Source: Oricola nitratireducens (GTDB lineage Bacteria; Pseudomonadota; Alphaproteobacteria; Rhizobiales; Rhizobiaceae). From it: 43,617 nt of DNA. The stretch is taken from the NCBI RefSeq assembly GCF_014904745.1, contig NZ_JACZCS010000027.1, forward strand, positions 1-43,617, given 5' to 3'. Position 1 is the stretch's first letter, and each line of letters starts with the position of its first letter. The notes below the pieces were generated by a model that saw only the letters and a program-made list of their open reading frames with translations, did not search any database and was not told where the DNA came from. A program made the translations under genes and the position numbers. This document shows positions 17,716 through 43,456 of this stretch, in pieces.

Positions 17716-18459
17716 GTGGCCACGGAATCCGCACGTAAGGACATCCATACCTCGGATATTCCGGCGATCTGCAAATCCTGCGAAGCCCGGCACCGGGGTA
17801 TCTGCGGGGCGCTCACGCCCGAACAGTTGACCAAGCTCAACCGCTTCACCAAGCAGCAGCGTTACGAGAGCGGCCATGAATTGCTGTCGGCGGGCGAGGA
17901 CGTCCACCGTTACTCGAACATCCTGCGCGGCGTGGTGAAACTGTCGAAGCTGATGGCCGACGGACGCCAGCAGATCGTCGGCCTGCAATTCGCACCGGAT
18001 TTCATGGGACGTCCGTTCCGCGCGCAGAGCGAAGTGATCGCCGATGCGGCGACCGACGTCACCGTCTGCACCTTCCCGAAGGCCGTCCTGGAAGAGCTGG
18101 TGAGCGAATCGCCCAATCTCGAACACCGTCTGCACGAACAGGCGCTGGAGGAACTGGACGAGGCGCGCGAGTGGATGCTGACGCTCGGGCGCAAATCGGC
18201 GGGCGAGAAGGTGGCCAGCTTTCTGTTCCTGATCGCGTCGAACATCGATCCCGAGATCGAAACGGACGAAGGGCCGGTCATGTTCGAACTGCCGTTGAAG
18301 CGGTCGGATATCGCGGATTTCCTTGGCCTGACGATCGAGACCGTGAGCCGCCAGATCACCAAACTGCGCAAATCCGGCGTCATTCAGGTGGAAAACAACC
18401 GCACGGTGATCGTGCCGGATCTCGAAAGGCTGGAAAGAGCCTGCGAGATCGACGGCTAG
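17716..18459 (+). CDS. fnrN: Oxygen-sensing Crp/Fnr-family regulator with [4Fe-4S] ligands (FnrN/FnrL type)
   Basis: A 247-residue activator for low-oxygen genes. The N-terminal cysteines are arranged C-x2-C-x7-C (Cys19, Cys22, Cys30 in ICKSCEARHRGICG), and a fourth is at Cys118 (VTVCTF). Together these can hold an oxygen-sensitive iron-sulfur cluster, as in rhizobial FnrN and Rhodobacter FnrL but not in FixK. The cyclic-nucleotide-like domain is followed by a helix-turn-helix with FLGLTIETVSRQITKLRKSG, whose E-x-x-S-R residues read TTGAT half-sites. Start is the GTG at 17716 after GGGAGA. Two TTGAT-N4-GTCAA boxes stand before the neighbouring hemerythrin-hemN/ccoN genes and before ccoG, so this gene very likely controls its neighbours. 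The stop codon TAG is part of the adjoining palindromic repeat. Confidence 0.92.
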   Translation: MATESARKDIHTSDIPAICKSCEARHRGICGALTPEQLTKLNRFTKQQRYESGHELLSAGEDVHRYSNILRGVVKLSKLMADGRQQIVGLQFAPDFMGRPFRAQSEVIADAATDVTVCTFPKAVLEELVSESPNLEHRLHEQALEELDEAREWMLTLGRKSAGEKVASFLFLIASNIDPEIETDEGPVMFELPLKRSDIADFLGLTIETVSRQITKLRKSGVIQVENNRTVIVPDLERLERACEIDG

Positions 18460-18566
18460 AGCCGTTCATCTTCAAATGGAATCGTTTGAACGCGGGGATT
18501 TCGACGCAGCCGGGGCGGAAAATCCATTCCATCAAACTGCTTCCATTTAAAGATGAACGGCTCTAG
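18456..18566. repeat. 111-bp palindromic intergenic element between fnr and hemN
   Basis: CTAGAGCCGTTCATCTT at 18456-18472 is perfectly complementary to 18550-18566. The pairing continues with one mismatch through AAATGGAA to 26 bp per arm, with partial further pairing (GTTTGA with TCAAAC) before a GC-rich centre. It fills nearly all the space between the convergent fnr and hemN genes and reads into the fnr stop codon. It resembles the long palindromic interspersed elements of rhizobia (RIME class), and may end transcription in both directions. Confidence 0.75.
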
Positions 18567-18572
18567 GCGGCG

Positions 18573-35811: not shown

Positions 35812-35891
35812 CCTTCTCCCCCCTTGGAGGGGGAGAAAGCAAAAGCTTGGGCTTGGCGGAGCCAAGTCCTTAGCTTTTGCAAGAGAGGGGG
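35812..35891 (+). repeat. Structured repeat, copy 1 (left end of the DUF559 cassette)
   Basis: From left to right: hairpin CTTCTCCCCC/GGGGGAGAA; then GCAAAAGCT (35839-35847) pairing with AGCTTTTGC (35872-35880), enclosing a second stem CTTGGC/GCCAAG (35852-35857 with 35861-35866); then AAGAGAGGGGG. Over some 58 bp from AGAAAGC to the right end it differs from copy 3 (43380-43456) at only two bases. The GAGAGGGGG end lies where the Shine-Dalgarno of the DUF559 gene is needed. Confidence 0.8.
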
Positions 35892-35897
35892 ACGGAT

Positions 35898-36239
35898 GTG
35901 GGAGACAAGAGGCTGCGGACCTTCGCCAAGGCGATGCGCAAGGAGCCGACGGATGCGGAATATGCGCTTTGGCAGATGCTGAGGTCCCGCAAGCTGAACG
36001 GAATGAAATTCAGGCGGCAGGAGCCGCTCGGGCCATACATATGCGATTTCGTCTGCCACGCGCGCAAACTGATCGTCGAAGCGGACGGGTCGCAACATGA
36101 GGGATCGAAGCGTGATGCGTGTCGTGACCGATATTTTGAAGACCAGGGTTACCGGACGATCAGGGTCCGGAACGAGGATATTTTGGAGGACGCGGATGCA
36201 GTCGCATTGCGGATCATCGATGAAGCGGGCGGGCGCTAA
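35898..36239 (+). CDS. DUF559 domain protein (Vsr/PD-(D/E)XK-like endonuclease fold)
   Basis: A 113-residue protein of the DUF559 family, related in fold to very-short-patch-repair and restriction endonucleases. Visible family stretches are TDAEYALWQMLRSRKLNGMK, FRRQEPLGPYICDFVCHARK, LIVEADGSQHEGSKRDACRD and YFEDQGYRTIRVRNEDIL. The likely metal-binding and catalytic residues Asp50, Glu61 and Asp63, with Gln66-His67, are kept, so it may be active. GTG at 35898 after GAGAGGGGG is the best start; a TTG at 35877 would begin inside the repeat. The stop at 36237-36239 is followed at once by the second repeat. No methylase, helicase or mismatch-repair partner is adjacent. G+C is lower than the neighbours. 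DNA target and role are unknown. Confidence 0.85.
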   Translation: MGDKRLRTFAKAMRKEPTDAEYALWQMLRSRKLNGMKFRRQEPLGPYICDFVCHARKLIVEADGSQHEGSKRDACRDRYFEDQGYRTIRVRNEDILEDADAVALRIIDEAGGR

Positions 36240-36240
36240 T

Positions 36241-36329
36241 CCCCCTCTCTTGCCTTTTCCAGGGACTTACGCGGGCTACGCCCACGTAATTCCGGGAAAA
36301 GGCTTTCTCCCCCTCGAGGGGGGAGAAGG
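36241..36329 (-). repeat. Structured repeat, copy 2 (right end of the DUF559 cassette, inverted)
   Basis: Read on the minus strand it begins CCTTCTCCCCCC and has GAGGGGGAGAAAGC, as copy 1 does, and ends GCAAGAGAGGGGG. The centre differs in sequence: GCCTTTTCC (36252-36260) pairs with GGAAAAGGC (36295-36303) and encloses a second stem TTACG-GGGC/GCCC-CGTAA with one mismatch. Ends and stem layout are thus kept while the stem sequence is changed. Its outer end GGGAGAAGGAG is the ribosome-binding site of pccA. Confidence 0.75.
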
Positions 36330-36338
36330 AGTGCGAGT

Positions 36339-38443
<2,105 letters not shown>

Positions 38444-38444
<1 letters not shown>

Positions 38445-39007: not shown

Positions 39008-41143
39008 ATGACCAAGAAAACCAAACGAGACTGGCTCGATCTCGCCGAAAAGGAGATCAAGCGCGATCCTTCCACCCTCGACTGGGCGACGCCGGAGGGC
39101 ATCACCGTCCATCCGCTCTACACGGCCGACGACCTGCCCGAGGGCGCGGCCGACGAACTCCCCGGCTTCGCGCCGTTCACGCGCGGGGTGAAGGCGACCA
39201 TGTATGCCGGACGGCCGTGGACGATCCGGCAATATGCGGGCTTTTCGACCGCGGAGGAGTCCAACGCCTTCTACCGGCGCAACCTCGCCGCCGGGCAGAA
39301 GGGCCTGTCGGTCGCCTTCGACCTCGCCACCCACCGCGGCTACGACTCGGACCACCCGCGCGTTTCCGGCGATGTCGGCAAGGCGGGTGTGGCGATCGAC
39401 TCGGTCGAGGACATGAAGATCCTGTTCGACGGCATCCCGCTCGGTGAGATGTCCGTCTCGATGACCATGAACGGCGCGATCATCCCGGTGCTCGCCATGT
39501 TCATCGTCGCCGGCGAGGAGCAGGGCGTGAAGCGGGCCGATCTCACCGGCACGGTGCAGAACGACATCCTCAAGGAGTTCATGGTCCGCAACACCTATAT
39601 CTACCCGCCGGAACCCTCGATGCGGATCGTCGCCGACATCATCGAGTACACGGCGAAGGAAATGCCGAAATTCAACTCCATCTCGATCTCCGGCTACCAC
39701 ATGCAGGAGGCCGGGGCGACGCTGGCGCAGGAACTCGCCTATACGCTCGCCGACGGGATGGAATATGTCCGCGCCGCCAAATCGCGCGGCCTCGACGTCG
39801 ACGCCTTTGCCGGCCGGCTGTCCTTCTTCTTCGGCATCGGCATGAACTTCTTCATGGAGGCGGCGAAGCTGCGCGCCGCGCGGCAGATGTGGTCGCAGAT
39901 CATGACGGATTTCGGCGCCAAATCCGATCGCTCGAAGATGCTGCGCACGCATTGCCAGACGTCGGGCGTCTCGCTCACCGAGCAGGACCCGTACAACAAT
40001 GTCGTGCGCACCGCCTTCGAGGCGATGTCGGCCATTTTGGGCGGCACGCAGTCGCTGCACACCAATTCCTTCGACGAGGCGATGGCGCTGCCGACGGATT
40101 TCTCGGCCCGCATCGCCCGCAACACGCAGCTGATCCTCGAACACGAGACCGGCGTCGCCAATGTGGTCGACCCGCTCGGCGGCTCCTATTACGTGGAAGC
40201 CCTGACGAAGGACCTCGCCGACAAGGCGTGGGAGCTGATCAGGGAAGTGGAAGCCTTGGGCGGCATGACCAAGGCGGTCGAGGACGGGCTGCCGAAACTG
40301 CGCATCGAGGAGGCGGCGGCGCGCCGGCAGGCGCGCGTCGACAAGGGCGAGGAGGTGATCGTCGGCGTCAACCGCTTCAGGCCCGCCGACCCGGACAAGG
40401 TCGACATTCTCGCCATCGACATCACCAAGGTGCGCGCCTCGCAGATCGCCAAGCTGAAAAAGGTGCGCGAGACGCGCAGCAAGGCCGCGCTCGAGAGCGC
40501 GCTGCAAAATCTCGAAAAAGTCGCGGCGTCCGGCAAGGGCAATTTGCTGGAAGCCGCCGTCGAGGCCGCGCGGGCGCGGGCGACGCTGGGCGAGATTTCC
40601 GATGCCATGGAGCGCGCCTTCCAGCGCCACCACGCCATCACCCGCGTGATTTCCGGCGTCTATGGCGAGGCCTATGCGGGCGACCCGGAATATGCCGCGA
40701 TCCAGACCCGCATCGCCGAGGTGACGAAGACGCTGGGCCGCAAGCCGCATATCCTCGTCGCCAAGATGGGCCAGGACGGCCACGACCGCGGCGCCAAGGT
40801 GATCGCCTCGGCGTTTGCCGACATGGGCTTCACCGTCGATCTGTCGGACATGTTCGAGACGCCGGAAGAGGTCGCGCAAAAGGCCAAGGCGATGGAGGTC
40901 GACGTCGTCGGCGTCTCGTCGCTCGCCGCCGGCCACAAGACGCTGGTGCCGGAACTGATCGACCGGCTGAAGGCGATCGGCGCGGGCGACATCAAGGTCG
41001 TTTGCGGCGGCGTCATCCCCGAGCAGGACTACGCGGATCTGCGCGCCGCCGGCGTCGCCGAAATCTTCGGCCCCGGCTCCAACGTGCTGGAGGCGGCCAA
41101 CGCCGTGCTGGCGCAGGTGGAGGGGCTGCGGAGGAACCGCTAG
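39008..41143 (+). CDS. Methylmalonyl-CoA mutase (single-chain, B12-dependent)
   Basis: Known as bhbA, scpA or mcm in different genomes. It turns methylmalonyl-CoA into succinyl-CoA with adenosylcobalamin, the last step of propionyl-CoA assimilation. The 711-residue protein has the catalytic barrel ([117 protein letters not shown]). The C-terminal B12-binding domain has [20 protein letters not shown], with the cobalt ligand His592 in the D-x-H-x-x-G motif, then [19 protein letters not shown] and [23 protein letters not shown] is GGAGATAGACC before 39008. Epimerase and the meaB chaperone are not in the window. Confidence 0.96.
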
Positions 41144-43202: not shown

Positions 43203-43373
43203 TGCCACAAGACACTGGTGCCGGAACTGATTGACCGGCTGAAGGCGATTGGCGCCGGCGACATCAAGGTCGGCTGCGGCGGCGTGGCGGAAATCTTCGG
43301 TCCCGGCTCCAACGTGCTGGAAGCGGCGAATGCGGTTCTGGCGCAGGTGGAGGGGGTGAGAAGGAACCGGTGA
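43203..43373 (+). pseudogene. Degenerate 3' fragment of a methylmalonyl-CoA mutase gene
   Basis: The frame reads [20 protein letters not shown], then [17 protein letters not shown] and [14 protein letters not shown] up to VRRNR and TGA at 43371. It is the last part of the B12 domain of the intact mcm at 39008-41143, but 14 residues ([14 protein letters not shown] in the intact gene) are missing. The loss lies between two GGCGTC copies, as expected for slippage. There is no start codon or upstream part. Several silent third-base differences show that it is not a fresh copy of the neighbouring gene. Confidence 0.85.
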
Positions 43374-43379
43374 GGGGCT

Positions 43380-43456
43380 CTCTCCCCCTTGGTGGGGGAG
43401 AAAGCAAAAGCTTGGTCTTGGCGAAGCCAAGTCCTTAGCTTTTGCAAGAGAGGGGG
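43380..43456 (+). repeat. Structured repeat, copy 3 (solo)
   Basis: It has the same layout as copy 1 at 35812-35891: CTCTCCCCCTTGGTGGGGGAG, then AAAGCAAAAGCTTGG, inner stem CTTGGC/GCCAAG, AGCTTTTGC and AAGAGAGGGGG. It starts 7 bp after the stop of the mcm remnant. No DUF559 gene follows it in the remaining sequence. Confidence 0.8.

Follow-up and report, generated by a model that had tools for sequence, protein, structure and literature searches.

Organization of the cassette

The window analyzed here is a 43,617-bp stretch of the Oricola nitratireducens genome (contig NZ_JACZCS010000027.1, forward strand), and unlabeled positions refer to it. At 35812-36329 it carries a 518-bp cassette, the subject of this report, in which an intact DUF559 gene for a predicted PD-(D/E)XK nuclease (35898-36239, + strand, GTG start; assigned by profile, alignment, structural model, and fold comparison) is framed by two oppositely oriented two-step hairpin repeats. 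The cassette lies between a conserved small open reading frame (ORF; P0001, 35428-35805), which served to locate the orthologous site in other genomes, and the propionyl-CoA carboxylase alpha subunit gene pccA (36339-38444, assigned by profile match), all on the + strand. Loci and genomes are designated by L-numbers and G-numbers, respectively.

Each repeat consists of an outer hairpin with arms CTTCTCCCCC and GGGGGAGA, a central stem-hairpin, and a G-rich foot, AAGAGAGGGGGA. In the left repeat (+ strand), the outer hairpin with its pyrimidine arm, loop, and purine arm occupies 35812-35838 (sequence reading and fold), the central stem-hairpin 35839-35880 (fold and covariation), and the foot 35881-35892 (sequence and mirror-repeat detector, locus L002). 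The right repeat (- strand) has its foot at 36240-36251, pointing at the gene (sequence and repeat search), its central stem-hairpin at 36252-36303 (fold), and its outer hairpin at 36304-36329 (repeat search, hairpin pattern, and fold). Read from the sequence, the outer ends (35812-35823 and 36318-36329) form a perfect 12-bp inverted match, as a first-pass annotation of the window had reported; the inner ends, which that annotation gave as 13 bp, match over 14 bp by eye (13-14 bp), with GCAAGAGAGGGGGA at 35879-35892 and its complement at 36240-36253. The foot mirrors the purine arm of the hairpin (GGGGGAGA ... AGAGGGGG), a property absent from the first-pass annotation, and so stands where the third strand of a triplex would lie. 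Judged from the letters, this is the layout of the intrastrand-triplex motif known as BoxC, potential intrastrand triplex (PIT), or triplex motif (TM).

Both repeats fold as two stacked hairpins, and the fold is kept while the central stem sequences differ, in agreement with the two-step layout first described for them. Among class A repeats, the class of the left repeat and its solo copy, 254 of 256 pairs in the basal central stem were kept across 32 distinct copies, and shuffled arms reached at most 216; related copies are non-independent, so that these figures lend support, rather than a calibrated probability, to a structure that is conserved while the stem sequence changes. The solo copy of the left repeat noticed in the first pass was recovered by repeat search at 43379-43456 (+ strand), with 96% identity over 73 nt. 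The inner-end 13-mer occurs three times genome-wide, at both inner ends and in the solo copy (reversed-pattern control, 0). A hairpin pattern that fits the right and solo repeats has 0.00 expected occurrences in shuffled sequence and misses the left repeat, which has one extra C before the loop. Near full-length matches to the left repeat were found at seven places in the genome, both in the window included, and on contig C55 two repeats lie with their feet facing, 19 bp apart, as in doublets of repetitive extragenic palindromic (REP) sequences, or REPINs. No Rfam family was matched at gathering scores (0 matches, 7 loci), and a long degenerate class A pattern had 0 matches in viral contigs.

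Directly before the solo repeat lies a fragment of the 3' end of a methylmalonyl-CoA-type mutase gene (43204-43369), 87-93% identical in two blocks to 40932-41139 with an internal deletion, as would be left if the repeat had brought adjacent DNA along or undergone recombination with it.

Association of the repeats with DUF559 genes

Repeats were located with a triplex detector, which requires a 7-bp pyrimidine/purine hairpin and a mirror third strand and uses no class-specific sequence. A triplex-capable repeat was found within 300 bp of 117 of 125 DUF559 genes, which are not all independent, some occupying one shared site (for example, the window site and the three E. coli loci). By the same detector, 2 of 375 flanks shuffled by dinucleotide contained a repeat, and 20 of 272 control ORFs and 2 of 30 HNH nuclease genes, the latter drawn from genomes of the same family, had one nearby. 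With a different, hairpin-plus-foot detector, a repeat lay within 300 bp of 40 of 42 DUF559 genes from relatives, most of them with 6 kb on each side, as against 9 of 196 other ORFs, and repeat density fell from 4.49 per kb within 200 bp of the gene to 0.067 per kb beyond 2 kb. Copies thus flank DUF559 genes well above chance, the check proposed in the first pass, and, though scattered, are associated with these genes.

The relatives were sampled by taking all 29 new loci and 42 further genes by rank, down to about E=1.5e-33; five places were skipped for a contig edge or a long open frame (G061, G095, G089, G027, and G043), and one lower-ranked neighbor was added. At the further loci, 21 of 28 new ones were kept (L153 repeats the gene of L084, and L159-L164 are split or weak matches), and from another locus set 12 of 42 records were taken.

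All four DUF559 genes of the O. nitratireducens genome adjoin such repeats by eye, three of them by the triplex detector. The association was also seen in Deinococcus (L170, inside a paa operon), cyanobacteria (L171 and L173), Neisseria (L172), and Desulfosarcina (L097 by detector, L098 by eye). All three E. coli loci were missed by the triplex detector; in E. coli K-12, a single triplex motif lies about 180 bp downstream of ycjD, which occupies the sapF-fabI site (PMC12817139), and degenerate copies can be seen by eye in the interval. At L169 (2295-3900) of Sinorhizobium meliloti Ak57, an ISRm16 element lies within a repeat beside a DUF559 gene.

Summed over the triplex-detector sets, the nearest repeat had its foot toward the DUF559 gene in 147 cases and away from it in 26. 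At many loci, the upstream foot lies, by eye, a few bases before the start codon, as would be expected if the repeats served gene expression, with the foot as ribosome-binding site and the hairpins insulating or terminating transcription, and so stayed with the gene while the enzyme never acted on the DNA. We regard this explanation as quite improbable, since downstream repeats often face the gene too, the same repeats are found in hundreds of copies with no such gene, and it would not lead one to expect the class-specific match to nuclease lineage described below.

Correspondence between repeat class and nuclease lineage

Repeats were sorted by motif into classes A, A2, B, C, D, E, and F, with patterns written after reading the flanks and without reference to the tree. 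Of the DUF559 genes with at least two physically distinct classified repeats, 68 of 71 had one class only (a first count that let two patterns match one repeat had given 69 of 73), and where both flanks carried classified repeats, the class agreed in 34 of 37 genes.

A quick maximum-likelihood tree was built from 123 DUF559 proteins, two of the 125 being left out as shorter than 90 aa; 31 rows without a class by the patterns and four with two classes were set aside, which left 88. Over these 88 single-class rows the repeat class changes 14 times, as against 44-59 changes in 500 label shuffles. The tree rests on few columns, and many of its forks are weak; such shortcomings should obscure a signal of this kind, not produce it. 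When labels were shuffled within the 12 genomes holding DUF559 genes of more than one class, 15-31 changes were needed and none of 1000 shuffles reached 14, so that the match between class and lineage cannot be attributed to the host genome. The A2, A, and E genes of the O. nitratireducens genome group on the tree with A2, A, and E-like (F) relatives. As far as sequence comparison goes, cognate pairing of DUF559 lineage and repeat class is well supported. An arm-to-arm comparison of upstream and downstream flanks at 33 loci was judged weak evidence, because same-class pairs from different loci often score as well as true pairs, and was dropped in favor of testing class against the tree.

These results bear on a passive association, in which the repeats would be common intergenic sequence or recombination hot spots where DUF559 genes land. 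The same-genus genome G058 could be so explained, for its pccA site (L108) is a 299-bp gap with degenerate repeats and no DUF559 gene. The low background (20/272 control ORFs, 2/30 HNH genes) and the genome-level co-occurrence given below speak against it, and the within-genome coupling of class and lineage already largely refutes it, which makes passive association highly improbable.

Co-occurrence in genomes and dispersed copies

Genome-wide counts rest on pattern searches, for which reversed-pattern controls gave 0 throughout the family-genome searches and one match (G160) in the C-type search of the phylum. Across 101 genomes of the family, where a weak DUF559 match in G042 was counted as negative and class A was recorded by presence or absence alone, any A, A2, or B pattern was found in 52 of 61 DUF559-positive genomes and in 7 of 40 DUF559-negative ones. 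Copies numbered 1277 versus 31 for A2 and 518 versus 20 for B, so that DUF559-bearing genomes hold nearly all repeat copies counted. The match extends to class: class A was present in 7 of 9 genomes whose sampled DUF559 genes carry class A versus 2 of 31 others, the median A2 count was 20 where sampled genes carry A2 and 3 elsewhere, and the median B count was 11 where they carry B and 1 elsewhere. Among 120 Pseudomonadota genomes, a table tallied by hand with DUF559-positive defined as a match below 1e-10, the C-type pattern was found in 19 of the 25 whose DUF559 match was strong and in 9 of the other 95.

Among the dispersed A2 copies listed, opposed pairs about 123 bp apart start-to-start recur in G017, G038, and G086 (about 147 bp in G087), and a similar opposed pair adjoins the DUF559 gene at L038 (contig C9 of G038). 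Such pairs look like a fixed-size non-autonomous unit that occurs with and without the gene.

The REP-like layout, and the known action of REP-associated tyrosine transposase (RAYT) systems, would also fit a RAYT/Y1 or other transposase that moves the repeats with the DUF559 gene as passenger. The Y1 transposase family PF01797 has no match in the O. nitratireducens genome, which led us to reject a RAYT as mover of the repeats there, and is present in 13 of the 101 family genomes, yet 52 of the 61 DUF559-positive genomes carry repeats. On this test, which covers PF01797 among transposase families, the passenger explanation is barely credible.

The DUF559 gene and its product

The cassette gene matches PF04480 with E=1.5e-36 over profile positions 2-106 of 109, which bears out the first-pass reading of an apparently intact PD-(D/E)XK-like gene between opposed repeats. 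Its start is more likely the GTG at 35898 than the alternative TTG at 35877, which lies inside the repeat, and the left foot (35881-35892) is likely its ribosome-binding site. With residue 1 defined as the codon at 35895, residues D51, E62, D64, G65, Q67, and H68 are invariant in 15 aligned DUF559 sequences; of these, D51, E62, D64, Q67, and H68 are presumably catalytic, as in the PD-(D/E)XK superfamily.

An AlphaFold model of the protein had a mean predicted local distance difference test (pLDDT) score of 85.8 and a predicted template modeling (pTM) score of 0.79. Its fold matches were, in order, NGO0050 (3hrl), the catalytic domain of the homing endonuclease I-Bth0305I (3r3p), and, more weakly, Vsr. 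A profile search of solved sequences returned the same first two, the second with E=0.021 only; Cholera-toxin B rows in that search had E above 0.4 and were dismissed as chance matches. By profile and model, the protein is a predicted nuclease of the PD-(D/E)XK type, similar to Vsr and I-Bth0305I.

YcjD, the E. coli member of the family, was among the seeds of a 2005 PD-(D/E)XK survey, in which its profile detects Vsr (PMC1189080), and in a Caulobacter methylase mutant the DNA-damage response depends on a DUF559 Vsr-like protein (PMC12907096). Two DUF559 copies, L095 (Hoeflea olei) and L106 (Rhodopseudomonas palustris XCP), look broken, the frame of L106 running into a repeat. The control E. 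coli genome, one of 14 controls, had no PF04480 match, though ycjD of K-12 is annotated as DUF559.

History of the pccA site and evidence on movement

The cassette is shared at the pccA site by Ahrensia, Jiella, and three Hoeflea, one of whose copies, L095, looks broken, and is therefore old here; the repeats are kept in all five relatives found, so that the gene was not encountered at this site without them. In 8 of 30 sites compared by script (L113, L114, L118-L121, L125, and L131), pccA begins almost directly after the small ORF, and empty sites therefore exist; at most other sites the start of pccA was unplaced or other sequence was found. The empty pccA sites are too diverged to place an exact junction. 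The mobility suggested in the first pass keeps the standing of an inference, and the copy at this site is an old one, maintained by vertical descent.

Evidence on movement was sought in pairs of similar genes. There were 19 protein pairs with at least 78% identity, and flanks were compared for 14 of these and for three other pairs. Seven of the 14 are at the same site, five (79-86% identical) are without convincing flank homology, and two have one partial match (L056/L072 and L035/L072). The five unrelated-site pairs are L101/L102, L023/L057, L045/L066, L097/L098, and L042/L049, compared over short flanks of about 0.4 to 6 kb. In three of the five, the DNA homology stops within or at the outer repeat on each side: in L101/L102 it extends from the outer end of the left repeat to inside the outer hairpin of the right repeat, which is truncated in L102; in L042/L049 its limits are an upstream repeat pair, at the outer edge, and the downstream repeat, at the outer end; and in L097/L098 the left repeat and the gene plus right repeat match to their outer ends. 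Such boundaries are consistent with, and short of proof of, repeat-gene-repeat as the moving unit.

Flank matches in L042/L049 are short and adjoin the gene and were read as repeat-derived. The near-identical pair L035/L056, in one genome, represents a duplicated, rearranged region and not a clean jump. At L075, L149, L142, and L052, in four genomes, a DUF559 cassette lies, by eye, in a homologous neighborhood with cysS on one side and a VOC-type gene on the other; L142 has a diverged DUF559 gene and its repeat pair is in the opposite order to that of the other three. Elsewhere in the window, 18450-18572 contains a 32-nt inverted repeat, 91% complementary with 59 nt between the arms, whose sequence is unrelated to the cassette repeats.

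Interpretation

We consider it probable that the cassette is one copy of a widespread system, akin to the RAYT-bearing REPtrons, in which a DUF559 (YcjD-type) nuclease is paired with cognate triplex-capable hairpin repeats that it may mobilize. The nuclease would recognize the folded, probably single-stranded hairpin and G-rich foot of its own class and would nick or cut there. Repair or copying of the broken strand could then carry either a bare repeat pair, as a non-autonomous unit, or the whole repeat-gene-repeat cassette, as an autonomous one, to new intergenic sites, much as a RAYT acts on GTAG REPs or a homing endonuclease on its host. A foot that faces the start codon would probably double as ribosome-binding site and so let the cassette sit in operons.

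Several observations weigh against this proposal. Seven of the 14 similar-gene pairs are at the same site, and movement is therefore rare; it was not itself observed, and no exact empty site with a target duplication was found, nor did a search of Azospirillum and Sinorhizobium plasmids for exact empty sites yield a clean filled/empty pair. Among the unrelated-site pairs, L097/L098 has an unrelated stretch between the left repeat and the gene, L023/L057 fits at the left edge only, and L045/L066 fits at neither. Mixed classes occur in 3 of the 37 genes with classified repeats on both sides, and 26 of the 173 nearest repeats face away from the gene. Repeats are held by 7 of the 40 DUF559-less family genomes, with up to 21 A2 and B copies (G047: 19 A2, 2 B), and the DUF559-less genome G132 holds 42 C-type copies, either because the gene was lost or because the repeats have another partner there. 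Finally, the authors of the Caulobacter study predict mismatch repair for their DUF559 protein, VsrA (PMC12907096).

This last point leads to the alternative that DUF559 proteins are host genome-maintenance nucleases, similar to Vsr and YcjD, that process triplex or hairpin DNA, the repeats being their binding or regulatory sites, next to the nuclease gene and elsewhere, and spreading by other means such as replication slippage or recombination. The Vsr-like fold of the model agrees with it, as do the tie between VsrA, the predicted mismatch-repair enzyme, and a cytosine methylase (PMC12907096), the retention of several cassettes at one site across species, and the link between triplex repeats and local instability in E. 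coli (PMC4666352). It leaves unexplained why the homology of some unrelated-site genes stops at the outer repeats, why presence is patchy with several lineages per genome, and why the gene is framed by inverted copies. We consider a maintenance role unlikely, though less so than the other alternatives; two findings, homology bounded by repeats and pairing within genomes, lead us to prefer the nuclease/repeat system to a role in repair alone.

The broader proposal, to which we would give even odds, is that BoxC/PIT/triplex repeats are non-autonomous members of an unrecognized class of mobile or homing elements driven by DUF559 nucleases: a distinct counterpart of RAYT-REP systems, present in several phyla, whose PD-(D/E)XK enzyme would recognize an end of the hairpin-triplex type and of which E. 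coli YcjD would be a remnant. To our knowledge, no partner has been known for BoxC/PIT/triplex-motif repeats since the 1990s. That a DUF559 gene nearly always lies beside repeats of its own class suggests an overlooked partner that spreads and maintains this common, unexplained repeat family. A cognate nuclease makes the questions of what these repeats are and what moves them testable at the bench, including in E. coli K-12, which carries ycjD. If the proposal is true, it would provide a function for a nuclease family that is large and little understood, and the REP/RAYT way of life would have a second solution unrelated to the first.

Comparison with known systems

A search of open-access literature, outside which most subscription papers and preprints lie, turned up no paper that connects DUF559 or YcjD with these repeats. 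The closest parallel is the RAYT/REPtron, in which repeats often occur in inverted pairs and enzyme and repeat classes co-evolve (PMC3733652; PMC8266576). As there, cognate repeats lie beside the enzyme gene and are dispersed without the gene as well. The enzyme differs, being of the PD-(D/E)XK type (PF04480) in place of an HUH Y1 tyrosine transposase (PF01797), and so do the repeats, which have a mirror third strand and, in place of the GTAG foot of RAYT REPs, a GAGGGG-like foot in this cassette and other G-rich feet at other loci. The analogy drawn in the first pass, with a DUF559 nuclease replacing the transposase, is supported, with repeats of the BoxC/PIT/triplex-motif kind and not GTAG REPs, and with exact empty sites not found.

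Alphaproteobacterial REPs tagged with CGTC resemble the cassette repeats in being alphaproteobacterial repeats without an associated transposase; the text of the REP survey assigns RAYTs to GTAG REPs and no associated transposase to CGTC REPs, which differ from the cassette repeats in their CGTC end motif and CCA-type tail (PMC3733652). Insertion sequences and miniature inverted-repeat transposable elements are marked by terminal inverted repeats together with a target-site duplication; of these, the cassette shows inverted ends. Unlike I-Bth0305I and Vsr, the cassette protein is small, single-domain, and framed by repeats, with no intron or intein host.

In their structure the repeats are of the BoxC/PIT/TM kind, with a purine-arm hairpin followed by a mirror-repeat purine strand, as seen in the window and at 117 of 125 loci. 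BoxC has been described as a stem-loop family (PMC2267715). Like the motifs of Holder et al. (2015), the repeats are intergenic, present in many copies, and sometimes in inverted pairs (PMC4666352). According to that study, such motifs occur in more than 260 genomes, are tied to instability, have no mobility functions nearby, and, for the E. coli motif, form a triplex in vitro that is not stable in vivo; a word search of its main text found "nuclease", "ycjD", and "Vsr" all absent (PMC4666352). Unlike the published motifs, many rhizobial repeats have an extra central stem between arm and foot, a linker longer than the 1-6 nt loops of the published triplex-motif search (PMC4666352).
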